From a virus: a stretch of 37,439 bases of DNA. The notes beneath the pieces are model-generated. The model saw only the letters and a list, made by a program, of their open reading frames with translations, did not search any database and was not told where the DNA came from. A program made the translations under genes and the position numbers. The stretch spans positions 1-37,439 of IMG/VR virus record IMGVR_UViG_3300043399_000280, one strand, 5' to 3'. Numbering within the stretch: the stretch's first letter is position 1; each line of letters starts with the position of its first letter. Of this stretch, positions 11,223 to 33,794 are shown piece after piece.

Positions 11223-12329
11223 TTAGAATAAATCTACCTTTTCCCATGGTAAATCGGGTTTACCAAAGTGTCCGTAATTAGTAGTTAATGAATAAATTGG
11301 GCGGAAAAGATTAAAACGATCAATGATGCCCTTGGGTGTCAGATCTACATGCTGTGCAACCCAATTGGTTAACTCACGCGATAAATCACTATCTTCGGTT
11401 TCAACGTAAAAACTCATAGGATCTGCGACGCCAATGGCATAACTGACCTGGCAAGTAGCCCATGGCGCCCGACCTGACGCCACAATGTTTTTAGCAATAT
11501 AACGCATCATGTATGCTGCGGAACGATCAACCTTTGTGGGATCCTTGCCAGAGAACGCACCACCACCGTGTGGAGCATATCCACCATATGTATCAACAAT
11601 GATTTTGCGTCCTGTAAGTCCGCAGTCACCGTCTGGTCCGCCAATGACAAAGCGTCCAGTTGGGTTAATGTAAAACTCAGTCAATCCCGGAATAATATAT
11701 TCTGCGGGCAGTAATTCTGTGATAATATCTTCTACTACTGCACGTACAATATTAATGGGCACATGGTCGCGATGTTGTGTTGAACATACAATTTTGCGAA
11801 TACTCACTGGGCGATTTGCTTCATCATATTCAAATGTTACTTGTGCTTTGGCATCTGGGCCTAACCAAGCAAAATCTACTGTGTGGCGTAGTTCTGCGAG
11901 TTTTTGTAGTATTCTATGGCTCCAGTATAATGCTGCGGGCATGTAGTGTTCTGTTTCGTTGGTAGCATAACCAAACATAAGTCCTTGATCACCTGCACCA
12001 AAGTTGTCTGTACCTAGCGCAATATCTGCGGATTGACTGTGCAACAAGTTAGTAACTCTAAGCGTATGCCAGTTAAACCCATCTTGCTCGTAGCCGATGT
12101 GTTTGACTGTTTTGCGCACAGCCGACTCAATTTCTTCTGGGTGCAGCACTAAGCCCTTGTATTCGCCGGCAACAATTACGTTGTCTGTGGTAACCATGGT
12201 TTCGCATGCGCAGCGCATAGCAGGATCTTGGTGCGCCATTACCAAGTCTAATACTGCGTCCGAAATAGCGTCGGCTACTTTATCTGGGTGTCCTTCTGAC
12301 ACGCTTTCTGATGTAAACAAATAACTCAT
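11223..12329 (-). CDS. metK: S-adenosylmethionine synthetase
   Basis: A full-length 368-residue methionine adenosyltransferase (E. coli MetK is 384). It joins methionine and ATP to make SAM, releasing phosphate and pyrophosphate. Motifs are intact: E8, H14 and D16 in TSESVSEGHPDK, residues 111-126 (GAGDQGLMFGYATNET), the P-loop-like 231-250 (GPDGDCGLTG and IIVDTYGG), 255-268 (GGGAFSGKDPTKVD) and YGHFG near the end. It should be active. Cellular phage hosts already have this enzyme, so its presence suggests the phage needs extra SAM. An AGGAAC ribosome site precedes the ATG. Confidence 0.95.
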   Translation of the reverse strand: MSYLFTSESVSEGHPDKVADAISDAVLDLVMAHQDPAMRCACETMVTTDNVIVAGEYKGLVLHPEEIESAVRKTVKHIGYEQDGFNWHTLRVTNLLHSQSADIALGTDNFGAGDQGLMFGYATNETEHYMPAALYWSHRILQKLAELRHTVDFAWLGPDAKAQVTFEYDEANRPVSIRKIVCSTQHRDHVPINIVRAVVEDIITELLPAEYIIPGLTEFYINPTGRFVIGGPDGDCGLTGRKIIVDTYGGYAPHGGGAFSGKDPTKVDRSAAYMMRYIAKNIVASGRAPWATCQVSYAIGVADPMSFYVETEDSDLSRELTNWVAQHVDLTPKGIIDRFNLFRPIYSLTTNYGHFGKPDLPWEKVDLF

Positions 12330-13695: not shown

Positions 13696-13853
13696 TGTTT
13701 TCTCCCAGTTTCTGCCAAATACTTTTCTTGCCACCCGCTGTAGTATGTAACTGATCCTGCGGTTTCGCGAATTACATAACCATTTTTATAAACCCAGGAC
13801 TTGATTGATTCTGACAGCATGTGCCAGGGTTTGTTTACGTCTTGTTCGTTCAT
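13692..13853 (-). CDS. 53-residue hypothetical protein
   Basis: A short gene starting at the ATG at 13853 and overlapping the queE stop as TAATG; its own TGA overlaps the next ATG as ATGA. Coupling at both ends strongly supports it. The product reads MNEQDVNKPWHMLSES, then a Trp/Tyr-rich stretch (SWVYKNGYVIRETAG, SVTYYSGWQEKY). No domain recognised. Confidence 0.65.
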   Translation of the reverse strand: MNEQDVNKPWHMLSESIKSWVYKNGYVIRETAGSVTYYSGWQEKYLAETGRKQ

Positions 13854-14713
13854 TATTTCCCCCATGCGTTTCCGTAAATGTCGATGTGCAACCGTGGGCT
13901 GTAATAGTAACCACGCTTGAGTGCTTCGTCACAGACATTAAACTTGTTAGCATCGTAAACGCCGCTAACACCACCTACGGGCATGATATAAACCTTGCCC
14001 TTGAACCCTGCTTTACGATATTCGGCCACGGCACGATCTACTTCGTCAATATGTGCTTGATTTTCTACTACGAATTTGAGATATGTTTCGCCTACACGCT
14101 CATAACTGCGTACAATCTTAGGACAAATAGCATCCTCCCAACGTTCTCCAGATGCCGATAGTTTAGCACTTACACTAAACGTAACCTTGCGTAGCTTATG
14201 GTTACCCCAACGTTTTAAGTAGTCTTTGAAATCTGGATGTAGTTCTTGAGTGCCATTAGTTTCAAATGTAATGTTGGTTAGATCCCACATCTTGGCGTGG
14301 CTTAGTAGCTCTTCGTAGTGTCGTTGCCAACCTAACAATGGTTCACCACCTGTGACAACCAAGTGTATGTCGTTGCCATTGGCTTGCTGCCAGTGATTGT
14401 TGGGTGTCAGGCTAGTTAGTTTATCAGCAATTTCATCAATGCCCATTGTAGGACTTAGATGCTTGAACTTAGGATGCCACGATGCGTAACTGTCGCAACC
14501 TGTGGTAACTAGCGGTAGTTCTTCATAAGTCTTGTACAGTTGAATATTAGCAGCAACTTCATCAACTTCTTTGGTCACTTCACCTGCGGGCAAACCAAAA
14601 CCCGGGCAAGTAAAGTTACAACCAAATGTGCGTAAAAACACACTGGGTACACCTACAAACTTGCCTTCGCCTTGTACGCTATAAAAAATTTCACTGACTT
14701 TAATTTTACTCAT
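13853..14713 (-). CDS. queE: 7-carboxy-7-deazaguanine synthase QueE
   Basis: A 286-residue radical SAM enzyme that converts CPH4 to 7-carboxy-7-deazaguanine (CDG), using Mg and a 4Fe-4S cluster. The N-terminal KVSEIFYSVQGEGKFVGVPS is the classic QueE opening. Cluster cysteines appear as C32-x3-C36, but the third is displaced to C73 in TGCDSYASW, giving a C-x3-C-x36-C spacing, not the usual C-x3-C-x2-C. VVTGGEPLL is the SAM-contacting GGEP motif. The ATG at 14713 overlaps the upstream stop as TAATG; a second in-frame ATG lies at 14719. It works with FolE and QueD in this window. Confidence 0.92.
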   Translation of the reverse strand: MSKIKVSEIFYSVQGEGKFVGVPSVFLRTFGCNFTCPGFGLPAGEVTKEVDEVAANIQLYKTYEELPLVTTGCDSYASWHPKFKHLSPTMGIDEIADKLTSLTPNNHWQQANGNDIHLVVTGGEPLLGWQRHYEELLSHAKMWDLTNITFETNGTQELHPDFKDYLKRWGNHKLRKVTFSVSAKLSASGERWEDAICPKIVRSYERVGETYLKFVVENQAHIDEVDRAVAEYRKAGFKGKVYIMPVGGVSGVYDANKFNVCDEALKRGYYYSPRLHIDIYGNAWGK

Positions 14714-15519
14714 TACCATCTCTCAATCTGTGTTGGTTGCCACATTATACTATAATCCTGATCGCGTCGCAACCTTGTGTCCACTTCGGCGACCCAATCG
14801 CGAGTTTCTGGATCAACATATTCTTCGGGTATTACTTCGTCCAGATACTCCAAATGCTCCGCTGGGGTTGGATGTGGGTCTTGGCGTATTTGGCTGCGTA
14901 GTTCATATGACTTTTCGGGGTTATTTAGAACATCCTCACTAACTTCGATTTTATTTTTGTACGGTCGACTCCACCAATCTTGTTTAAACACTACGTCATA
15001 CACACCGGGTTTGATACTGTGTATAGTGAGTGCATAATAAGGTAGTAGGTCCTCTACTAGTCCATAGTCATCGACCTTATCGTACTGTGCCGAATTAAGT
15101 ATGCCGTTCATTGACAAAAAGAAATAACGGCAACCTATGCTTTTTAGCAGTTGTTCTGTGCTGTAAATTGTAGCAAGGTCACGAATGTAGTAACCGCGCA
15201 CGTCGGCAAAGCGTTCTACCCATTCATGTGGGTAGTGCTTTTGTGTAAAGATATTGCCGGGAGTGATCCATTGATTTTTAACATAGCGGTCTTCGCGACA
15301 CACATTAGTCCACATTACACCTACTGTGTCTGTAGGTTTGATTTCGTTACGTAAGTGTGCTTCAACAATAGAGTTAGCAATATATTGATTGCCTGCGCCG
15401 GTACACCCCCAATTTTGAAACTCGTCAAAATTACGGGCTACAATATCCGCCCACGTAGGCCAGCGGTAGCGTGTAAAACTACAACCAAAGGCAAAGAATC
15501 TACGTTTTATCGAGCCCAC
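14713..15519 (-). CDS. SGNH-hydrolase-like protein 3
   Basis: A 268-residue protein. The N-terminal RRFFAFGCSFTRYRWPTWAD is block I with S in GCSFT; NWGCTGAGNQYIANSI gives the Gly and Asn blocks; TVGVMWTNVCREDRY follows. The C-terminal RQDPHPTPAEHLEYLDEVI holds a D-x-H-P block V. The GCSFT form is shared with 34177-34896. I use the GTG at 15519 because a GGGAGGA ribosome site sits four bases upstream; other starts at 15546 (TTG) are possible. The gene separates queE from a phosphoribosyltransferase. Confidence 0.75.
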   Translation of the reverse strand: MGSIKRRFFAFGCSFTRYRWPTWADIVARNFDEFQNWGCTGAGNQYIANSIVEAHLRNEIKPTDTVGVMWTNVCREDRYVKNQWITPGNIFTQKHYPHEWVERFADVRGYYIRDLATIYSTEQLLKSIGCRYFFLSMNGILNSAQYDKVDDYGLVEDLLPYYALTIHSIKPGVYDVVFKQDWWSRPYKNKIEVSEDVLNNPEKSYELRSQIRQDPHPTPAEHLEYLDEVIPEEYVDPETRDWVAEVDTRLRRDQDYSIMWQPTQIERW

Positions 15520-16834: not shown

Positions 16835-17711
16835 AGTTTGCCTTAGGTTTTGATTTTGGATCAATAAATGCTAGTTGTTGGTTAGGGTCAAATTCTGGGC
16901 TCATCATTTTTGCCCAAGGATCTTGTTTTCCTGCGCACACATCTTTGAACCAAGTTAAATCGTATCCTTGTGTTTGTAAAAACCAAGCAAGACGATTGGC
17001 GTCATCAAATCTGCGCCTACGCCAGTTTACATGATTAAAATCTCGAGGATCGGTGTGATTGTTTTCGAACATAATGCGTTCGTTGTAAGTGTCATCTTTG
17101 TTATTACCAGTTAAATCATGGCGATCGTGTAAGACTTCAACATTGATATTTTCCATGATATCTAACATATAACTCATTTGACTAATCCATGCATCGGAAA
17201 TTTGATGCGGGCTTAGGTAACCAAAAAACAAGTACCATTCTCGAGGAACAACTGGGAAAATAGCATAAGGATGTGAGTTATGTGTAGGCATGCGTAAGCA
17301 TTTAAACTTACCGTTGTGTTGAGAAATTTTTGTATCCCATCCTGATGTTTTCATAATTGCATCATCATTCCAAAAGCACAACCAATGTGCGTTGGCAAAT
17401 CCTGCTAGTTTGCTAACATACTCGTTTAAACGAGCGTAGCCTAATCGTGGAAATTCTAGAGCTTGCCAGGATATACCTGCTGCTGCTACTTTTGGACCGA
17501 TGTGCTCAACGAAATAATCTAAACTGCTGCGATCGTCATCGTCGAATCCCAATAATATTTGAACTTTTTCTGGGACGTCAACATTGTTAACTAAGCTCAT
17601 AACACTTGTTTCTAGTGCAGTAGTGCGCCCACGTGTAGGCAGTAAAACTGCCACATCAAACTTAACTGGTTCGAGTACGGGAATTGTTCCGGGAGTGATT
17701 TGATTAGACAT
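16815..17711 (-). CDS. GT2-like glycosyltransferase
   Basis: A 298-residue protein with a GT-A-like layout. FDVAVLLPTRGRTTALETS (residues 18-36) is the nucleotide-sugar strand of family 2 enzymes; LLGFDDDDRSSL (53-64) and FWNDDAIM (113-120) are DxD-like acidic clusters that would hold Mn and UDP. A late KDDTYNERIMFEN stretch may carry the catalytic base. Donor and acceptor are unknown. The TAATG overlap with queD places the ATG at 17711; an upstream in-frame start at 17756 lies within queD and is rejected. Confidence 0.72.
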   Translation of the reverse strand: MSNQITPGTIPVLEPVKFDVAVLLPTRGRTTALETSVMSLVNNVDVPEKVQILLGFDDDDRSSLDYFVEHIGPKVAAAGISWQALEFPRLGYARLNEYVSKLAGFANAHWLCFWNDDAIMKTSGWDTKISQHNGKFKCLRMPTHNSHPYAIFPVVPREWYLFFGYLSPHQISDAWISQMSYMLDIMENINVEVLHDRHDLTGNNKDDTYNERIMFENNHTDPRDFNHVNWRRRRFDDANRLAWFLQTQGYDLTWFKDVCAGKQDPWAKMMSPEFDPNQQLAFIDPKSKPKANYGPAPN

Positions 17712-18280
17712 TACCGATCCATGTAATAAACAGAGCGTGACTTGGGTGTTTCCCACCAGTCAATATGGTGCACACGCACACCTAGTTTACGCATTTTTAC
17801 TTCAACGAGTTCTGCCATCCAAGCAGATAAACGCTCACTAGTAGGCACAAAATTAACAACCATAAACCCTTCATAATATTCATATTCAGGCGTGTTCTCG
17901 GTAAGGTCTGAGAGATCCAAGTGCCAACCGGCAATATAATCAGTGTCAGGAACCATAACAGGAACCAAAGCACGTTCGCCAACGATTTGTCCATATAGTG
18001 GGTCTGCCTTGTCAATAATAAATTGGTGATCAATGTAAGTGTTGATCCATTTCTTTAGCCACTCTAAGTGGCGGAAGTCTGTGACCATGCCAGTTTTGTC
18101 AAGACTGTTAGCACCTTCACCTGCACGATTAGGTTCAAGAAATACTTGCATCTTGCCTTCGTGTCCATGTAAATGGCGACATGCACACTTTAAGTCAGCA
18201 GCATACTTACCGTTTAGTTCTTGCGTCCAGACTCTGTGCCCGTAGCAAAACTCGAAGGTCTTATCTATGATCCATGACAT
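17711..18280 (-). CDS. queD: 6-carboxytetrahydropterin synthase QueD
   Basis: A 189-residue QueD/PTPS enzyme that turns dihydroneopterin triphosphate into CPH4, the second step of 7-deazaguanine synthesis. Zinc ligands are visible: H15 (YGHRVW) and H38/H40 in CRHLHGHEG. C34, the catalytic thiol, sits four residues before H38 as in E. coli QueD. GMVTDFRHLE (64-73), DH at 84-85, PTSE and the final WWETPKS glutamate complete the set. It is longer than E. coli QueD (about 120 residues) because of an insertion between DH and PTSE. An AAAGGC ribosome site precedes the ATG. Confidence 0.92.
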   Translation of the reverse strand: MSWIIDKTFEFCYGHRVWTQELNGKYAADLKCACRHLHGHEGKMQVFLEPNRAGEGANSLDKTGMVTDFRHLEWLKKWINTYIDHQFIIDKADPLYGQIVGERALVPVMVPDTDYIAGWHLDLSDLTENTPEYEYYEGFMVVNFVPTSERLSAWMAELVEVKMRKLGVRVHHIDWWETPKSRSVYYMDR

Positions 18281-19222: not shown

Positions 19223-19389
19223 TATTCGATTACCTTTGATCTTAGTTCTTTGATTTCTTCTATGGCAGCAAGATATAATGCTCTCCACGGGTCACCATAG
19301 TTTACCGCGTTTTCTAACACCGGAACAATATCCTGAGATCTAATATCTGCGACTCGTTGATCTAATTCTTGTTGACTTAATTTTTTCAT
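19222..19389 (-). CDS. 55-residue hypothetical protein
   Basis: A short gene between folE and 19058-19222, coupled at both ends: its ATG at 19389 overlaps the folE stop as ATGA and its TAA overlaps the next ATG. The product is helical, with SQQELDQRVADIRSQ and ALYLAAIEEIKELRSK. Function unknown. Confidence 0.65.
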   Translation of the reverse strand: MKKLSQQELDQRVADIRSQDIVPVLENAVNYGDPWRALYLAAIEEIKELRSKVIE

Positions 19390-20105
19390 CGCGGTGCAAA
19401 CTCCTGTTGTAGTTTGATATTGTCCATAAACTCTTTTTTAACACTTGGATCTGTTTTAAACGCACCGTGTAGTACAGTTGTTTGTGTTAAACTCGAATGT
19501 GCCATAATGCCACGGTTTTCGCAGCAGCCATGTGTTGCTTGAATATACACGCCTACATCTTGTGCGTCTGTGGCCTTCATGATTTCACGTGCAATGTCGT
19601 TGGCTAATTCTTCTTGAAGTGTTCCGCGACGAGCGCACCACTGAGCGATTCGTGTGTACTTAGAAAGACCGATAAGTTTACCAGCCGCGATAATTCCGAT
19701 ATAGGCAACCCCAGATACAGGTTGATGATGATGGCTACACATACTACGTAACTCGCTGCGAACTACGAGCATGCCTGAATAGCGGTCGTCAGAATCGTTT
19801 GGAAAAGCAGTTGCACTTGGTCTTGGGTCATATCTACCTGCCATGATTTCGTTAAAGTACATTTTAGCCAGTCGGCGTGCGGTGCCGTGGCTGTTAGGAT
19901 CGTTGTGGCGATCAATTAGTAGTGCATCGAGTACGCCTTCAAATGCTTCGGTGGCTTCGTTGATTAGTAGTTCTTTGTCGCCAGGTTGCAAGTAATCGCT
20001 GACATTATCGCCGGCCCAAAAGCGTTTTCCGTCGCGCTTCATTGCTGCACGGATGCTGCCAGAAATGCCAGCAACTTCGTGATCTTGATTGTTTTTATTT
20101 GTCAA
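19386..20105 (-). CDS. folE: GTP cyclohydrolase I FolE
   Basis: A 239-residue FolE that converts GTP to dihydroneopterin triphosphate, the first step of 7-deazaguanine synthesis. Zinc ligands are C123 and H126 (SMCSHHHQPVSG) and C194 (HGCCENRG); substrate residues lie in IGLSKYTRIAQW and RRGTLQEEL. The N-terminal 25 residues are variable. I chose the TTG at 20105: it is preceded by GGAGA with good spacing and a promoter 45 bases upstream, and the next ATG is inside the folded part. It feeds QueD and QueE downstream on the same transcript. Confidence 0.93.
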   Translation of the reverse strand: MTNKNNQDHEVAGISGSIRAAMKRDGKRFWAGDNVSDYLQPGDKELLINEATEAFEGVLDALLIDRHNDPNSHGTARRLAKMYFNEIMAGRYDPRPSATAFPNDSDDRYSGMLVVRSELRSMCSHHHQPVSGVAYIGIIAAGKLIGLSKYTRIAQWCARRGTLQEELANDIAREIMKATDAQDVGVYIQATHGCCENRGIMAHSSLTQTTVLHGAFKTDPSVKKEFMDNIKLQQEFAPR

Positions 20106-26496: not shown

Positions 26497-27297
26497 TTAA
26501 CTCCTTGTTAAAAGTTGTTTTGCGTTACAATGATTAATAAGTTTTTCGCTGAAAATGCGATGTGTTTCAATTCCAGGGTGCATCCCGTCGTCGGCTACAT
26601 CAATTCTAGTAGGAGTAAAACCGCCGTCGGTAATATCAATAAAGTTTGTTTGATCAATTGCATTGATTAACTTTTGTATGTGCTGAATCTTTTTAAAAAT
26701 GTAATCATCTGGCCGATTATCAAAATCTAGTAATGGCTTGAGTTGTTCGTCTAAGTTCGTGAATCCTTGCGTTTCATCGTATCCAACTGACAAGAATTCT
26801 TTAACTAGATTTGGATGGCCTTTGGCAAAGACATATTTGATGTTGTGCATTTTTAAGAAATTTTCTAGTGCGAGAATTTCAAGTAACCAATGTTTAATGT
26901 CGACATATAGGTTGTTGAAGTAAGTGTAATGTATTTTACGATATTCTTCGGCAAGTTGCAAGTGAGTTTTACTAGGAACAAACCCAGCGACCTCAATTGG
27001 AGAAATTATTGTAAAGTCGTCAACGTTGTTATCTTCAAAATAACGCCAGTTTCTACCTATCCGAGACCACATAACAACCACCAGATCATAGCAGTAATTG
27101 TTAGTAACTACAGCATCAACAACTCGATGAAAAATTTCGCTGTTACTACAACCTCCTTCGGCCACGTTATCGTGGTCGCAATTATAGTATCGAGAAACTA
27201 TGTTTGGCCAAATGTATTTTACTTCATTCTCTGGAGTAAACCCACTTTCAATAGTTGTTGAGCACCCTGCAAATAAAATTTTTGAATTTTTACTCAT
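26497..27297 (-). CDS. SGNH-hydrolase-like protein 5
   Basis: A 266-residue protein. SKILFAGCSTTIESGF is block I (GCS); DNVAEGGCSNSEIFHRV gives blocks II and III; YDLVVVMWSRIGRNWR follows. The C-terminal VADDGMHPGIETHRIF is a full D-x-x-H-P block V, so a Ser-Asp-His set is likely intact. AT-rich in appearance. Its start lies in the end of dpdA (8-base overlap). Confidence 0.78.
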   Translation of the reverse strand: MSKNSKILFAGCSTTIESGFTPENEVKYIWPNIVSRYYNCDHDNVAEGGCSNSEIFHRVVDAVVTNNYCYDLVVVMWSRIGRNWRYFEDNNVDDFTIISPIEVAGFVPSKTHLQLAEEYRKIHYTYFNNLYVDIKHWLLEILALENFLKMHNIKYVFAKGHPNLVKEFLSVGYDETQGFTNLDEQLKPLLDFDNRPDDYIFKKIQHIQKLINAIDQTNFIDITDGGFTPTRIDVADDGMHPGIETHRIFSEKLINHCNAKQLLTRS

Positions 27298-28822
27298 TGC
27301 TTTCTTCTAGTGCATCTAGCTTGGATTCATCGAATTCGTCAACTTCTGGTTCTTCGTCGTGAAAATCAAAAAGGTTGTTAAATTGTGTTTGTGAGTTAAC
27401 AGTTTTCTTGCCAGTGAATCCACGGGTTCCGATAATTTGTTGCCAAAATTTACTATTGTGATCGATAATTTCAAGGCTTTTGGCTTTGTCTGTTTGTTTA
27501 AAGATATCGTCGACTAAGTTTCTAAATAATACACGATCAAAAGTTTCTCGGACAAGCATTCCGGGCAAAATTCCTGCATCATATTGCCGATTTGCCTCTT
27601 GAACTGCTCGAATATGGTGCCAAACATTGTGCCCCATCATTAGAGCATACGAGAAACTATCCCACGATGTGCGCCCCTCTTTGCCTAATTTGTTTAGGTC
27701 ACCCGGAGCATACCAGCATACATCCGAAATTTCCATACGTGCACTAATTGGACTATCTTCGAACAATGTATGAACTTTGTCCTGTAGAACAGCATCACGG
27801 AAGCTGCGGCTGTCATTGGCATACTTCTTGTCATCGGCAGTTGGTTCCATTTGATAAGACCATTTGCCTCGGTCTTCTACACGCAAGTTAGTATAAATCT
27901 GTCCGTTGGCTGTGGCTAGGAAAGGCGAAGCACAGTCGAAACTAATAGTAAAATTAGGATTATGGTATCTACGAATAGCACGTTGAATGTCCGTGAGTAA
28001 GCAAGCATATTCTAACTTGGATGTGCCAAGAAAGTGCATCCAATCATGTACACCTTGTTGTAACAAACCATCGTGAATAAGAGTAACTAAACGCTTTAGG
28101 ATCAAATGGACGTCACACATGTTTTGACCTCCCATACCCCAACCGTTAAAGTGTTTGTCTGGATACTTGGCAGGATCACAATAGCCCTTCATTAGATCAT
28201 ACCAGTGATCTGCTTCGGCGTGATTGCCACCTTGTAATACGTTTAGGATTTTTGTTTCGCCGTAACGATTGTTAATCCAATAATCGTTGTTATACTTGGT
28301 AGCGTTTACAGCATCGTCGTATGAGTAAATACCCGAAGCAGCCGCAGCCTTAGGATCACGGAATGTCCAAGTTGGAATATCCATGGTCATGCCATAAGTT
28401 GCAATGCCCATTTGCCAATGCAAGACTTTTTCTCGTTGCTTTTCTGCGTTCTTGTCAGTGCGATCGGCCCAGCGTCCTGGCCACACACCCTTGGCAATCT
28501 GGAATCCTCCTGAGTCAGCAAGTATAATTGTGTTAGGATCACGATTACGAAGCATGTCCTCTTTGGCGTCAAACTTGTTTAAGTCTAAGTTTGCGTGACC
28601 TGCTGAATACAGACTCCATTTGTACGGAAACAACGCTTCGGTTGGGTTGAGCCAGTTCATGGCTTCCATGTTGCCAATCTTGGCAGGTAATCTGCCTGCG
28701 TCTAGTCCAGAGCCGTGTCGTTCACGCCCAATATATCCAGCATAGAAACTCGAAATTGCCGGTAAGAATACTGCATAATCTAACTGTTGTGCTGTTAAGT
28801 TGTCTTGATCTATCTTTGCCAT
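27290..28822 (-). CDS. dpdA: DpdA-family DNA 7-deazaguanine transglycosylase
   Basis: A 510-residue TGT-superfamily protein of the phage DpdA type. It would swap guanine in DNA for a 7-deazaguanine made by FolE/QueD/QueE. D103 in LADSGGFQ and D296 in FTISFDCASP match the two catalytic aspartates of tRNA-guanine transglycosylase (D102 and D280 in Zymomonas). GWGMGGQN sits in the place of the substrate-loop glycines. The zinc site is poor: only one Cys is left in SDVCWYAPGDL, but the following HN-x-W-H stretch is kept. After residue 470 there is a low-complexity acidic tail with an LFDF motif at 484-487 that resembles the clamp-binding end of the polymerase at 31131-33794. Confidence 0.88.
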   Translation of the reverse strand: MAKIDQDNLTAQQLDYAVFLPAISSFYAGYIGRERHGSGLDAGRLPAKIGNMEAMNWLNPTEALFPYKWSLYSAGHANLDLNKFDAKEDMLRNRDPNTIILADSGGFQIAKGVWPGRWADRTDKNAEKQREKVLHWQMGIATYGMTMDIPTWTFRDPKAAAASGIYSYDDAVNATKYNNDYWINNRYGETKILNVLQGGNHAEADHWYDLMKGYCDPAKYPDKHFNGWGMGGQNMCDVHLILKRLVTLIHDGLLQQGVHDWMHFLGTSKLEYACLLTDIQRAIRRYHNPNFTISFDCASPFLATANGQIYTNLRVEDRGKWSYQMEPTADDKKYANDSRSFRDAVLQDKVHTLFEDSPISARMEISDVCWYAPGDLNKLGKEGRTSWDSFSYALMMGHNVWHHIRAVQEANRQYDAGILPGMLVRETFDRVLFRNLVDDIFKQTDKAKSLEIIDHNSKFWQQIIGTRGFTGKKTVNSQTQFNNLFDFHDEEPEVDEFDESKLDALEESNE

Positions 28823-29451
28823 TTGCCGCCCATTACTGTAACTAATCTATATCCGCCATCATCAATTGGTGCCCACACGTATTCATCATCTTCAACTTGC
28901 TGCTCAGTGACAGGAGAATGATTATCGTTTTGAATCCCCCAACTTGGAAAAATATTGAATTTATACGCAGGTAAAGAGTTTAATATTCTTCCGATCCCTA
29001 GTGGTCCTGCGTGTAAACAAATATCCCAAGCACCCCCGATGATAATCCAGTCAAAAATACCAGGATGATATGATTGTATATGATAATCAAACGTTCTACT
29101 AGTATTTAGAGAAACTGTATGTTCATCGAACAAATTATCATTTAGTACTTTACTAATTGGTTGCTCTCCGGAATTTATAACAAGACTATCTCTTACTTCT
29201 AGTTTAATATCTTCGGGTATTGTTGAGTTTTGATCCCACACATATTTTCTAAGAGTATTAACCACGCTGCGATTCGAGTAGTCAAGTGTTTGACTTGTTG
29301 AACAATTGACTACCGGTCCGATATTATATTTTGATAAGTTGTCGACAATTCTATGATAAAAATCGTCATTGGTTCCGTTGTTATCCCAAACGTCAATACA
29401 TAACACACCCCATGTTGTGGGGGGTGTGTAAAGTATCACACCTTTAATCAC
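28810..29451 (-). CDS. Unknown protein, isochorismatase-like outline
   Basis: A 213-residue protein. WGVLCIDVWDNNGTND recalls the first strand and Asp of cysteine hydrolases; DWIIIGGAWDICLHAGPLGI has a cysteine where that fold places its nucleophile (G-x5-C). The usual Lys is not evident, so activity is uncertain and the match is weak. It overlaps dpdA by 13 bases and is coupled by ATGA to the clamp gene, so it is co-expressed with DNA modification and replication. AT-rich in appearance. Confidence 0.6.
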   Translation of the reverse strand: MIKGVILYTPPTTWGVLCIDVWDNNGTNDDFYHRIVDNLSKYNIGPVVNCSTSQTLDYSNRSVVNTLRKYVWDQNSTIPEDIKLEVRDSLVINSGEQPISKVLNDNLFDEHTVSLNTSRTFDYHIQSYHPGIFDWIIIGGAWDICLHAGPLGIGRILNSLPAYKFNIFPSWGIQNDNHSPVTEQQVEDDEYVWAPIDDGGYRLVTVMGGKWQR

Positions 29452-30179
29452 TTGCTTTGTGCTGGTAAAATATATTCGTAAACTGCAATGCCAGAGTCAA
29501 CTGTGATTTTAGTTGCACCATCATCGCTGATTTGCACTTTCTTGTCACCAGTTAAATTCATAATGCTAATGAATTGTACAACCGGCCATAACCATGCACG
29601 AGTTAGTTTACCTGTAACGCCAGCATGGAACACAAAGTCGCCTGCATGGGTCGAGTGGTCGCCAAAGTAAAACTTTAGATTGTCGCCTTCGGTTTTAGCA
29701 ATAAACGTTGATTCTTCAGAGTTTGCTTGTGCCTGCATCTTCAAACGTTGAATAGCAGCAACAGTTGGTTCAAATTCAACACTCCAGTTTACCGGCTTCA
29801 TCTTAACTTGCTTGAGTTTATCGGATACAACTTCTGATACCATGAAACGATAATCGTTGTGGAAATCATTGGCTTTGTTGGAAAAATGCATACCCACTGG
29901 ACTGTCGACACCATTTCGATCTTGGCGTGTAACAGTAATGTTAGCGTCTTCGCGATACTCTTGTAGGTTTAGTAAGATCTTTAGTTTGCTTAGGTTTGGC
30001 ATACCAAAGGTGCCCATAAACTCTGCAACCGGAGTCTTAAATTTAGCCTGTAACACAACAGACTTGTCTTCGGCTAAACCGTCAATGGTTGTTTCTTTGT
30101 CGGTTCCGGTGATCTTAATCAAATCGATACAGCCAAGATCAAAACTGTGTTCTACTAGGTCTAATAAAAAGTCTCTCAT
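29448..30179 (-). CDS. 45: DNA polymerase sliding clamp (gp45-like)
   Basis: A 243-residue PCNA-fold protein, near the size of T4 gp45 (228). It forms a ring that holds the polymerase on DNA and, in T4, also activates late transcription. The N-terminal DLGCIDLIKITG, AEFMGTFGMPNLSKLKILLN (the loop before the inter-domain strand), VNWSVEFEPTVAAIQRL and the final AVYEYILPAQ match the gp45 family. Basic residues on the inner helices (KLKQVKMK) agree with DNA passage. GGAG precedes the ATG. It is upstream of dpdA in the operon. Confidence 0.9.
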   Translation of the reverse strand: MRDFLLDLVEHSFDLGCIDLIKITGTDKETTIDGLAEDKSVVLQAKFKTPVAEFMGTFGMPNLSKLKILLNLQEYREDANITVTRQDRNGVDSPVGMHFSNKANDFHNDYRFMVSEVVSDKLKQVKMKPVNWSVEFEPTVAAIQRLKMQAQANSEESTFIAKTEGDNLKFYFGDHSTHAGDFVFHAGVTGKLTRAWLWPVVQFISIMNLTGDKKVQISDDGATKITVDSGIAVYEYILPAQSK

Positions 30180-30189
30180 GTTATCTCCA

Positions 30190-31134
30190 TTAAATTTTTA
30201 AAATTTGTCCTAATGCTTGAGCACCGCGGATACTTTGTCGTCTTCCAGGACGCTCGATTTCTAACCAACTTACGTTGTTTTCTAAATCAAAACTTGCTGC
30301 GATTTTGAAACCTGCTTGTTCGCAAATTTCTTTAACTTTTCTACCAGGTGTATAACAATAATATGCATTTTCAAAATTGTCAACACCAATTGGATGGTCG
30401 CAGTTGTTATATGTAAAGATCGCCGTTCCGCCTGGGCGTAACAGGTCAAACATCTCTTTTATATAACGCTGAATCATTTCCAAGGGTCTGAAGTTTAAGA
30501 AATCGACAGAGACAATTAATCCAAATTGTGCTTGCGGAAGCTGGTCAAATATCTTTGCTGCTTGTTCATTAATTATGTAATAGCGCAACCTACGTTGATA
30601 CTCTGGTGTCCATTTTGACTTAGCTACTTTAAGTAGTTCTTCTTTCGTGTCTACAAGATATAATGGGTCACAACCTACTAGAGATTCGGTAATATCACAA
30701 ATTGCCGGACGTATTTCTAGTGCAGGCCATTTCCAACTAGTATGCAGTTTTACACGACTTAAGAAAAACTCATAGGATTCTTGTTCGTAGAGCAATTTTT
30801 TAAAACTGTACCGATCAAGAATATAATCAGCACTATCGTTTAGGCCTTCTTGGTAGTACTCTCGGCTTTTTTGGTAGTATGGACCTTCGATGCTTTTAAC
30901 AAACTCATTAAGCTGTTGTTTGAATGTAGTCAAGTTGGCATTGATATTTTCTAAAGTAGAGAATATAGTTTGCCGATCCTGGTCAATACGTTCTTTGAGA
31001 TTATCAAAGTCAATGTTTTGACTATCTAGGTCAATGCTAACTTGTTGTAGCAATGATTCTAATTCATCATGAACATGGTTAACACTTAGGTTGTCAACCA
31101 TGTATTTGTAAGTGATCAGTTTGCTAAGTTTCAT
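30190..31134 (-). CDS. Coiled-coil methyltransferase-like protein
   Basis: A 314-residue protein with two parts. Residues 1-95 are a likely coiled coil (ESLLQQVSIDLDSQ, NLKERIDQDRQTIFSTLEN). Residues 140-290 look like a class I methyltransferase: AICDITESLVGCDPLYLVD stands for motif I and the ribose-binding Asp, FGLIVSVDFLNF for motif IV, LRPGGTAIFTYNN for motif V/VI, and AGFKIAASFDLEN is typical of the end of Methyltransf_11/12 proteins. The glycine loop is poor, so SAM binding needs proof. It sits between clamp and polymerase genes and is ATGA-coupled to the latter. Confidence 0.7.
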   Translation of the reverse strand: MKLSKLITYKYMVDNLSVNHVHDELESLLQQVSIDLDSQNIDFDNLKERIDQDRQTIFSTLENINANLTTFKQQLNEFVKSIEGPYYQKSREYYQEGLNDSADYILDRYSFKKLLYEQESYEFFLSRVKLHTSWKWPALEIRPAICDITESLVGCDPLYLVDTKEELLKVAKSKWTPEYQRRLRYYIINEQAAKIFDQLPQAQFGLIVSVDFLNFRPLEMIQRYIKEMFDLLRPGGTAIFTYNNCDHPIGVDNFENAYYCYTPGRKVKEICEQAGFKIAASFDLENNVSWLEIERPGRRQSIRGAQALGQILKI

Positions 31135-33794
31135 TCAAATTCAAATAGTGATTGAAAAGTATTCTTGGTATTGGTTTCATTGGCTAAATCCCAATCAAGA
31201 ACACCTAGTAAGTTGTCAACCTTTTGATCGACAACTGTGGCTTCCATGGCAGCATCGTCAAAGGGCAAGTCTTTAAACCACTGTGGTAAATGCAGTTCGT
31301 CAGTTGGATAACCAATTGAACTCCAGTTGAGTGCGTTAGGCTTTAGTTTACACACAATAGTTTTCATACCATCAACAATTTGCATTGAGTAGTTGTCACC
31401 ATTCATGCGCTTTAAAGTATTCCAGTTGAGTGCGGCGCGAACGTGCCCGGGCATGTTCGCTTTGCCTTCGCGTTCTTCTTTTTTGCCATACATAGTTAGG
31501 TTGTTTACACGCTTAGGTGAGCCTTTTTCCCAGCCCGGACGTTCAGTAAACTCATACTTGAACTCCTTGATGCTCGCAATGATTTCTTCTTTTTCGGCAC
31601 CAGCAAGTACACGTTCAAGTAGTGCGTACAAGAATTCTTGAATTACCTTCGGCGTATCACTACGCTTTAGATCCAAGCCCATGGCTTTGATTTTACCTGG
31701 TTTACCTTCGACATCTAGTCTCTTACCTTCTTTGTCAAAGATGTTTACAGCATAACGCTTTTTAGTAATAAACAAACTGCGGTCAGCAATTAGTTCTCGA
31801 CCGCCTTTGATTAAACTGCCCATATCGCGTGGGCAATGAAACGCTTGTTCCATAAAACCAGGGAAACTATCGTTGACTTGGTCAGCAAGGTTGTCGTAGA
31901 GCTGGATACAAATTTCTTTAGACCATTGCATACGACCTTCTTCGACTTCTTTCTTAAGCACAGGCCACGCACTAAAGTAACACGAGTCTGTGTCGCCGTA
32001 GATAATGCAATCACCGGTGTGGTCATATTTGCCTGTAAAGCATTCGTTTATAAACGCATCCATGTGTTTAGCAATTTGACGTCCAGTAAGCGTAGTGGAT
32101 TGACCAATACGCTTATCAAAGAATCTACAACCAGGATTAAGAATAGCACCGTATAAACTATTAAGGTTAATTTTCTTGACAAGTTGTCTTTTATCCCAGA
32201 ATTCCTGATCTTCTTTAGTAGTTGCATCTTTGAGTTTGGCCTGTAGTTCTTTGCGTTCACGATACCAACGGGCTAGTAATCCGGGGATAACGCCTTCTGT
32301 TTCATAGGTAAAGATTGTACCATTGGCACTCATAATCCAAGGTTGATTCGAATCAAAGATCATGTGCCAGATTTCAGCAGCCGAATGTACAGTTTCGTTG
32401 CCGTCTTCCCAGTCAATGGTAATTTCTGTACCGCGTTGTTGTTCCATTACTGCGTTATACTCGAGTGTGCCAAATAGGCCTTCCCATGCTGCCGCAAAAC
32501 TCATTTTGCCTGTGGTCATGCGTTCACGAATATACCTGTCAGTCATTATTGGTCTGAGTTGACCAATGATTGTTTCGGGCGCCATGTTAAGAGCGCGGAT
32601 CGCCGAGGGATAGAGTGAGTTGATGTCGACTGCGCCGACCCATTCGTGGATGCCTTTTTTGGGATAAGCAACATAGGCACCGGCTGCTTGTGTATCTTCA
32701 TCTGTAAGCCTTTCTCGACGGTTAGGAACAACAAAGCCACGCTCATGTGCTTCGATGATAATGGCTTGCTCAGTAACTGCTACTGCACCCATTGTGGTTT
32801 GCAGTAGTACAGTATTTGCATGTGCAAGTTCATTGGCTAGATCCAAGAACTTGAGTTTTTTATCCATTTGTGCCAATCCGTTAACGTCTTGGCGGTTATA
32901 TTCGATAAAGGTTTTGAAGTTTTGATTGTATAGTTGATCTAGTGTGCCTTCGTACTTGGTCTTACCTTCAAGACCTTCGTATTCAAGAATGGAATCTAAA
33001 CTATAACTATGACGTTCTTCATATGTGTACTTGCGATACAGTTGCATATAGTCCATATGAACCCGGCCGATCAAATCAAACGTAAGTTGTTCTGCACCAA
33101 AGCGTTCGAACATACGTTGCTTAGGATACTGCCCCCATAGACACATACGGCGTGTGTCATCTTTGCTTAACACACGAGTAATGCGCTGAATGGTATATGG
33201 AATATCGAAGCCTTCTGAGTTCCATCCCGACAACACATCTGCATCATCAATGATATCCAAAAATGCTTCAAGCATTTCTGTTTCTTTGGTAAAGACAAAT
33301 GTGTTAGGAAACTCTGCGGCAATTTCGTTGGCAGTTTCTAGGCTCATGTGCTTAGGCGGAACAACAAATGTTACCAGTTGATCAATCCAGTCCATGTAAA
33401 CTGAAATTGCTGTAATTGGGTTAAACGGATCATCGGGTCGACTATAACCACGTTCGGGATCAAAGTCGACCTCAATATCGAAAAAGGCTGTTTGCAGTTT
33501 TGGAGCATCAACGCCTTTGTAGTTTTCCTCAAAGCATCGGAAAACTGGATTGATATCAGACTCGTAAATCTGTTTACCTGCTTGAATACGAAGTTCCTTG
33601 CGAAACTCTTTGTTGTTGCGTGTGCTAAAACGGCTTACGCTACGTCCGTGTGTGCTAGTAAACTTACCGCGAGGATCGTCATAGTAAAAGATGTATGTTG
33701 CAGGATACTCGCGGTATTCTCTCTTACCATTCTTGCGTTCTACAACGTGAATGCGATCGTGTTCACGATCAAATAGTGCGTCAACGTAACTCAT
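31131..33794 (-). CDS. 43: Family B DNA polymerase (gp43-like)
   Basis: An 887-residue replicative polymerase with proofreading, near T4 gp43 length (898). Exo I D106/E108 (FFDIEVD), Exo II near 190-197 (SGWNSEGFD) and Exo III at 299-304 (YNRQDV) are intact. Pol motif A has D390 in VDINSLYPSAIR; motif B is LVKKINLNSLYGA (538-550); motif C is YGDTDS with D601/D603. The last residues FQSLFEFE form the hydrophobic clamp-binding tail known in RB69 gp43. A GGAG ribosome site precedes the ATG, just behind a hairpin at 33814-33856. Confidence 0.95.
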   Translation of the reverse strand: MSYVDALFDREHDRIHVVERKNGKREYREYPATYIFYYDDPRGKFTSTHGRSVSRFSTRNNKEFRKELRIQAGKQIYESDINPVFRCFEENYKGVDAPKLQTAFFDIEVDFDPERGYSRPDDPFNPITAISVYMDWIDQLVTFVVPPKHMSLETANEIAAEFPNTFVFTKETEMLEAFLDIIDDADVLSGWNSEGFDIPYTIQRITRVLSKDDTRRMCLWGQYPKQRMFERFGAEQLTFDLIGRVHMDYMQLYRKYTYEERHSYSLDSILEYEGLEGKTKYEGTLDQLYNQNFKTFIEYNRQDVNGLAQMDKKLKFLDLANELAHANTVLLQTTMGAVAVTEQAIIIEAHERGFVVPNRRERLTDEDTQAAGAYVAYPKKGIHEWVGAVDINSLYPSAIRALNMAPETIIGQLRPIMTDRYIRERMTTGKMSFAAAWEGLFGTLEYNAVMEQQRGTEITIDWEDGNETVHSAAEIWHMIFDSNQPWIMSANGTIFTYETEGVIPGLLARWYRERKELQAKLKDATTKEDQEFWDKRQLVKKINLNSLYGAILNPGCRFFDKRIGQSTTLTGRQIAKHMDAFINECFTGKYDHTGDCIIYGDTDSCYFSAWPVLKKEVEEGRMQWSKEICIQLYDNLADQVNDSFPGFMEQAFHCPRDMGSLIKGGRELIADRSLFITKKRYAVNIFDKEGKRLDVEGKPGKIKAMGLDLKRSDTPKVIQEFLYALLERVLAGAEKEEIIASIKEFKYEFTERPGWEKGSPKRVNNLTMYGKKEEREGKANMPGHVRAALNWNTLKRMNGDNYSMQIVDGMKTIVCKLKPNALNWSSIGYPTDELHLPQWFKDLPFDDAAMEATVVDQKVDNLLGVLDWDLANETNTKNTFQSLFEFE

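Follow-up and report, generated by a model that had tools for sequence, protein, structure and literature searches.

The predicted base-exchange enzyme of this giant phage, a DpdA-like protein, has a C-terminal tail containing a short hydrophobic motif (the hook) that resembles the C-terminus of the phage's own DNA polymerase, and the gene for a predicted sliding clamp lies between the two. The polymerase-like hook on DpdA and the placement of the clamp gene suggest a link between base modification and DNA replication. We consider it likely that the DpdA tail is a clamp-interacting peptide and that the tethered enzyme exchanges bases on newly replicated DNA. The window, by which we mean the whole stretch of DNA analysed, comes from IMG/VR and is a viral fragment 37,439 bases long, for which no close relative was found at the DNA level in the GenBank phage collection. 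On one strand it encodes, in this order, the polymerase, a methyltransferase-like protein, the clamp, a protein without assigned function and DpdA. Neighbouring genes in this string overlap by 4 to 13 bases, the exception being a 10-base gap before the clamp gene. The genes of the string, and the segments of the two tails, are as follows.

31131-33794, minus strand: family B DNA polymerase (gp43-like), 887 aa (PF00136, E 3e-35; phrog_262, E 1e-191)
31137-31157, minus strand: putative clamp-interacting peptide at the polymerase C-terminus, FQSLFEF, residues 880-886
30190-31134, minus strand: methyltransferase-like gene between polymerase and clamp (PF08241, 25.7 bits against a cut-off of 21.2)
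29448-30179, minus strand: predicted PCNA/gp45-superfamily sliding clamp, 243 aa (fold match, and a Vibrio homologue in phrog_223)
28810-29451, minus strand: gene without assigned function between clamp and dpdA (no Pfam or PHROG match)
27290-28822, minus strand: dpdA-like gene, predicted base-exchange enzyme of the tRNA-guanine transglycosylase (TGT) fold, 510 aa
27392-27430, minus strand: conserved basic segment GTRGFTGKKTVNS, DpdA residues 465-477, directly before the hook
27362-27388, minus strand: clamp-interacting-peptide-like motif TQFNNLFDF, DpdA residues 479-487, with the core FNNLFDF at 27362-27382 (residues 481-487)
27305-27337, minus strand: second conserved tail block EFDESKLDALE, DpdA residues 496-506, a weakly predicted helix

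The gene at 28810-29451 is not conserved at most related loci. The polymerase, which is closest to those of Phosso and Agrobacterium phage Atu_ph07 and next to those of giant phages such as RaK2, 121Q and CBB, has a C-terminus that reads ...NTKNTFQSLFEFE, its final residues being TFQSLFEFE, and the pattern TFxxLFxF is kept among its homologues. In one related contig the polymerase is present as two abutting ORFs (L068:4425-7100), reflecting a frameshift, an error or an insertion scar, while the neighbouring L069 is intact.

The DpdA-like protein displayed no match in Pfam and PHROG scans, and its assignment draws on structure and genomic context. Its AlphaFold2 model, built from 50 homologues (pLDDT 88), adopts the (β/α)8 fold of TGT, and the best Foldseek match is a tRNA-guanine transglycosylase (E 2.8e-7, probability 1.00, TM by target ∼0.5). 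DSGGFQ (residues 103-108) and D296, located in SFDCASP, are invariant among the 50 homologues; D103 and D296, in the DSGG[FY]Q and FDC motifs, are presumably the equivalents of the TGT catalytic aspartates. The window also encodes three enzymes associated with 7-deazaguanine synthesis.

19386-20105, minus strand: GTP cyclohydrolase I (FolE) of the 7-deazaguanine pathway (PF01227, E 4.7e-40)
17711-18280, minus strand: QueD-like 6-pyruvoyl-tetrahydropterin synthase (PF01242, E 1.6e-24; phrog_2389)
13853-14719, minus strand: QueE-like radical SAM protein (phrog_2076, E 6e-53)

The name DpdA-like was chosen because of the TGT-fold match, the invariant aspartates and the presence of FolE, QueD and QueE in the window. 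From the fold and these three genes we infer that the enzyme exchanges guanines on DNA rather than RNA. QueC gave a weak match in just one of five large related contigs, so that the preQ0 pathway is only partly accounted for. A complete S-adenosylmethionine synthetase gene (11223-12329, minus strand) lies beside radical SAM and methyltransferase genes. Distant relatives of the enzyme occur in Pseudomonas phage PA5oct and its kin, Vibrio phage 2.275 and Sinorhizobium phage Phosso, and PA5oct was predicted earlier to have a system for deazaguanine synthesis and incorporation (PMC7824862). Searches of viral contigs with the DpdAs of Vibrio phage 2.275 and PA5oct as queries returned no relatives. 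In Phosso (L085:7968-12169) the dpdA-like gene is located directly before a primase and a DnaB-like helicase, away from the clamp. Three loci filed under Neomarinimicrobiota or archaeal MAGs (L238, L239 and L240) carry a dpdA of the window's clade together with a clamp and a polymerase, and are likely phage contigs binned into MAGs.

The first-pass annotation had assumed that a gp45-type clamp was present, and such a clamp is indeed encoded at 29448-30179, though its product has no Pfam match. Modelled with AlphaFold2 (pLDDT 92.4), the window protein displays a two-domain clamp fold over its full length and matches PCNA along the whole chain (Foldseek E 4.5e-11); in the comparison with PCNA (VIA), Z was 18.5, with 224 residues aligned and an rmsd of 3.4. 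The Pfam gp45 models PF02916 and PF09116 gave no match on 12 related contigs because they are too narrow for the clade of this clamp. As the sequence is too distant from the Pfam gp45 families, the assignment is carried by the fold. The protein matches phrog_12062, a PHROG listed without function, while its Vibrio homologue, located between polymerase and DpdA, matches both phrog_12062 and phrog_223 (gp45 processivity factor). A profile of the clamp family found a PA5oct 'structural protein' (E 4.5e-60) and the annotated clamp of Phosso, and reached T4 gp45 at E 0.018 with filters off. The modelled product of 29448-30179 is thus well supported as a predicted sliding clamp of the PCNA/gp45 superfamily. 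The PA5oct gene product (L084:6912-7658, annotated 'structural protein, ESI-MS/MS') and the family phrog_12062 both represent this sliding clamp, so that the PHROG, whose function has been blank so far, gains one as a sliding clamp family. The clamp gene was present at all 82 loci of a first set and, located between those for polymerase and DpdA, at 119 of the 121 in an enlarged set; a clamp loader was encoded in all five large contigs.

The proposal that DpdA carries a polymerase-like clamp-binding motif came from the first-pass annotation, and the reading of both ORFs bears it out: TQFNNLFDF occupies exactly 27362-27388, and the tails of DpdA and polymerase (FNNLFDF and FQSLFEF) have the string F-x2-LF-[DE]-F in common. 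Absence of the tail from close homologues would have told against the proposal, yet [FYW]xx[LMF]F occurs within the last 70 aa of 113 of the 121 distinct DpdA homologues, the other 8 being without the core pattern. Among 96 representatives F485 is kept in 93, L484 in 88 and F481 in 85, while the linker that follows (488-494) is variable. The folded body of the AlphaFold2 model ends at ∼461, and the hook lies beyond it, in a stretch modelled with low confidence that has one isolated short helix; pLDDT is below 50 at 468-482 and 485-497, as would be appropriate for a clamp-interacting peptide on a flexible tail. The description of the acidic tail as probably disordered is mostly right, except that residues 496-506 are conserved and weakly predicted to be helical. 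In 11 distinct members the protein ends no more than 8 aa past the hook, the acidic tail being lost and the hook forming the C-terminus. In two further DpdAs (L070 and L071) the usual site has drifted and the extreme C-termini read NLFDFGE and NPLFEF.

When the DpdA tail was shuffled, the strict pattern F..LF[DE]F arose in 0.04% of cases and a broader one in 0.9%; among random 75-aa stretches taken from inside proteins of related phages, 0.66% had the broader pattern. Given also its conservation and its place outside the folded body, the motif itself is well supported and is not due to chance. No other window ORF of at least 60 aa has the motif in a real C-terminus, the third match being a small ORF (YLFELE). 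Of 233 conserved protein groups from four near-complete related phage contigs (293-353 kb), the polymerase and DpdA alone show the tight pattern near the C-terminus in at least three of the four contigs. A looser motif, [LMFI]F[DESTGNK][hydrophobic], was kept by 9 groups against 6.1 expected, and the tighter pattern was adopted because these were mostly antisense ORFs. With several hundred related viral loci known, the arrangement is a common one in nature.

In divergent isolates the DpdA hook resembles that of the same phage's polymerase. The polymerase of Vibrio phage 2.275 ends NNTDLFDW and its DpdA NNNDLFGW, and the corresponding hooks of PA5oct are FDSLFGW and FNSLFDV. Among the 509 features of Vibrio phage 2.275, LF[DEG]W stands at the gene end of the polymerase, DpdA and a single 74-aa protein; the last, the hypothetical product of NVP2275O_204 (L252:714-938), ends LFEW and is perhaps a further clamp client. 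Phosso-type DpdAs display no clear hook although Phosso encodes a clamp, and nt-1, a T4-like Vibrio phage with gp45, has an unrelated DpdA2 that is without a hook and ends YPDFKS. Clamp presence alone thus fails to predict the hook, and DpdAs of phages that have a clamp do not generally carry one. The two hooks covaried strongly in 38 representatives, where the hook segment of DpdA ranked 1st of 497 and that of the polymerase 2nd of 864, but weakly in 93 (92nd of 503 and 61st of 880, respectively; Mantel p 0.03); covariation beyond relatedness is therefore weakly indicated and is not relied upon. An apparently perfect FF/FF agreement between the hooks was broken in the larger set by L222 (polymerase FF, DpdA LF), and clamp columns that follow the two FF lineages (222 A to I/L, and 44 to N) were set aside as they represent two lineages only.

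The hook is accompanied by two other conserved tail segments. In the basic segment GTRGxxGKKxxN, which has low pLDDT, G465, R467 and G471 are invariant among 96 representatives. The conservation of residues 465-473 exceeds that of the hook, so part of it could serve DNA binding, and residues 465-477 are possibly a DNA-contacting arm. The second block has columns as invariant as those of the hook (L502 83/87, L505 81/86, E506 83/86). Its pattern, [LF]DxxxLDxLE, occurs in 85 of 121 distinct DpdA members and also in PA5oct, and was found in none of the other protein groups of the four contigs compared. An alternative is that the hook belongs to an extended arm (465-487) for contact with DNA or substrate, which would fold against the enzyme or the DNA once substrate is bound; the likeness to the polymerase tail would then reflect convergence between short hydrophobic sequences. 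Such an arm would fit the conservation of G465, R467, G471 and the KK pair directly before the hook, which equals or surpasses that of the hook. The DpdAs of PA5oct and Vibrio phage 2.275, however, are without GTRGxxGKK and still keep hooks like those of their own polymerases, and the relocation of the hook in L070 and L071 also argues against such an arm; we regard this explanation as improbable. That the protein is instead a phage tRNA-guanine transglycosylase acting on RNA, with a tail that has no DNA role, seems very unlikely. Although its closest solved fold is a tRNA-guanine transglycosylase, the CxCxxC zinc motif of TGT is absent from the sequence, the gene is linked to 7-deazaguanine synthesis genes and a replication operon, and jumbo-phage transglycosylases of this type, including that of PA5oct, are predicted to act on DNA (PMC7824862).

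In the mechanism we favour, residues 481-487 of DpdA would hook into a hydrophobic pocket of the PCNA/gp45-type clamp that the phage itself encodes, the same pocket that the polymerase tail would use, and the flexible arm would tether the enzyme to the ring. Clamp-mounted DpdA would then exchange guanines on the DNA threaded through the clamp, that is, newly made DNA behind the fork. We infer both the binding of DpdA to the clamp and its coupling to the replication fork. The tail could also bind the clamp for another end, such as competition with the polymerase, clamp tethering in late transcription or repair-like patrol, with no fork-coupled modification. The T4 clamp also serves late transcription via gp55 and gp33 (PMC2988020), and the share of modification made by T4 α-glucosyltransferase has been traced mainly to expression and activity, clamp binding not being the main cause (PMC13216743). 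The polymerase-clamp-dpdA string, and the finding of no other conserved hook-bearing protein, point indirectly to replication instead, and we consider these other purposes unlikely, if less so than the two explanations above. Whether a whole giant-phage clade mounts a TGT-like enzyme on its clamp, with guanines exchanged genome-wide, strand by strand, during synthesis and not by an untethered enzyme after replication, is in our estimate an evenly balanced question. How TGT-like enzymes gain access to guanines across the genome in a fast infection becomes testable through point mutations in the hook, which also provides a sequence handle for finding further clamp-mounted modification enzymes.

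The first-pass annotation knew of no earlier description of clamp tethering of a base-exchange enzyme, and the literature searched, as far as its text was available, yielded no link between DpdA or 7-deazaguanine modification and clamp tethering. For DNA-modifying enzymes in general the novelty is smaller, as T4 α-glucosyltransferase is a close precedent: it binds gp45, and its modification has been proposed to run with replication (Sommer 2004; PMC13216743). By analogy it offers direct precedent for clamp binding by a phage modification enzyme, as proposed for DpdA, whose own binding is predicted; it differs in transferring sugar to hmC rather than exchanging bases, and in its unrelated fold. 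The peptides of T4/RB69 gp43, gp55 and gp33 resemble the DpdA hook as short, hydrophobic, acidic motifs on flexible C-terminal arms that serve a PCNA-fold trimer, although they belong to a polymerase and transcription factors, and the T4 string is SLDFLF rather than FxxLF[DE]F. In T4 the SLDFLF tail of gp43 binds a gp45 pocket between the clamp domains (PMC12746103). Clamp epitopes can be exchanged among gp43, gp55 and gp33; gp55 and gp33 carry theirs on flexible arms, and in a gp55-gp33 fusion an epitope placed internally remains functional (PMC2988020). The DpdA tail is built like these epitopes, with a conserved hydrophobic motif that is surrounded by flexible chain and lies internally or at the terminus; clamp riding is its most likely role. 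Phage DpdA and DpdA2 (9g, nt-1; PMC6884629) are, as in the window, TGT-fold proteins near FolE, QueD and QueE genes, and DpdA inserts preQ0 into DNA. In contrast to the window's clade, nt-1 DpdA2 is without the hook, and BLASTP provided no link between them (best match E 0.16). DNMT1 is a eukaryotic methyltransferase that interacts with PCNA through a PIP box near its N-terminus; as proposed for DpdA, it modifies DNA behind the fork while attached to a clamp, and it differs in its eukaryotic origin and in the N-terminal location of its PIP box.
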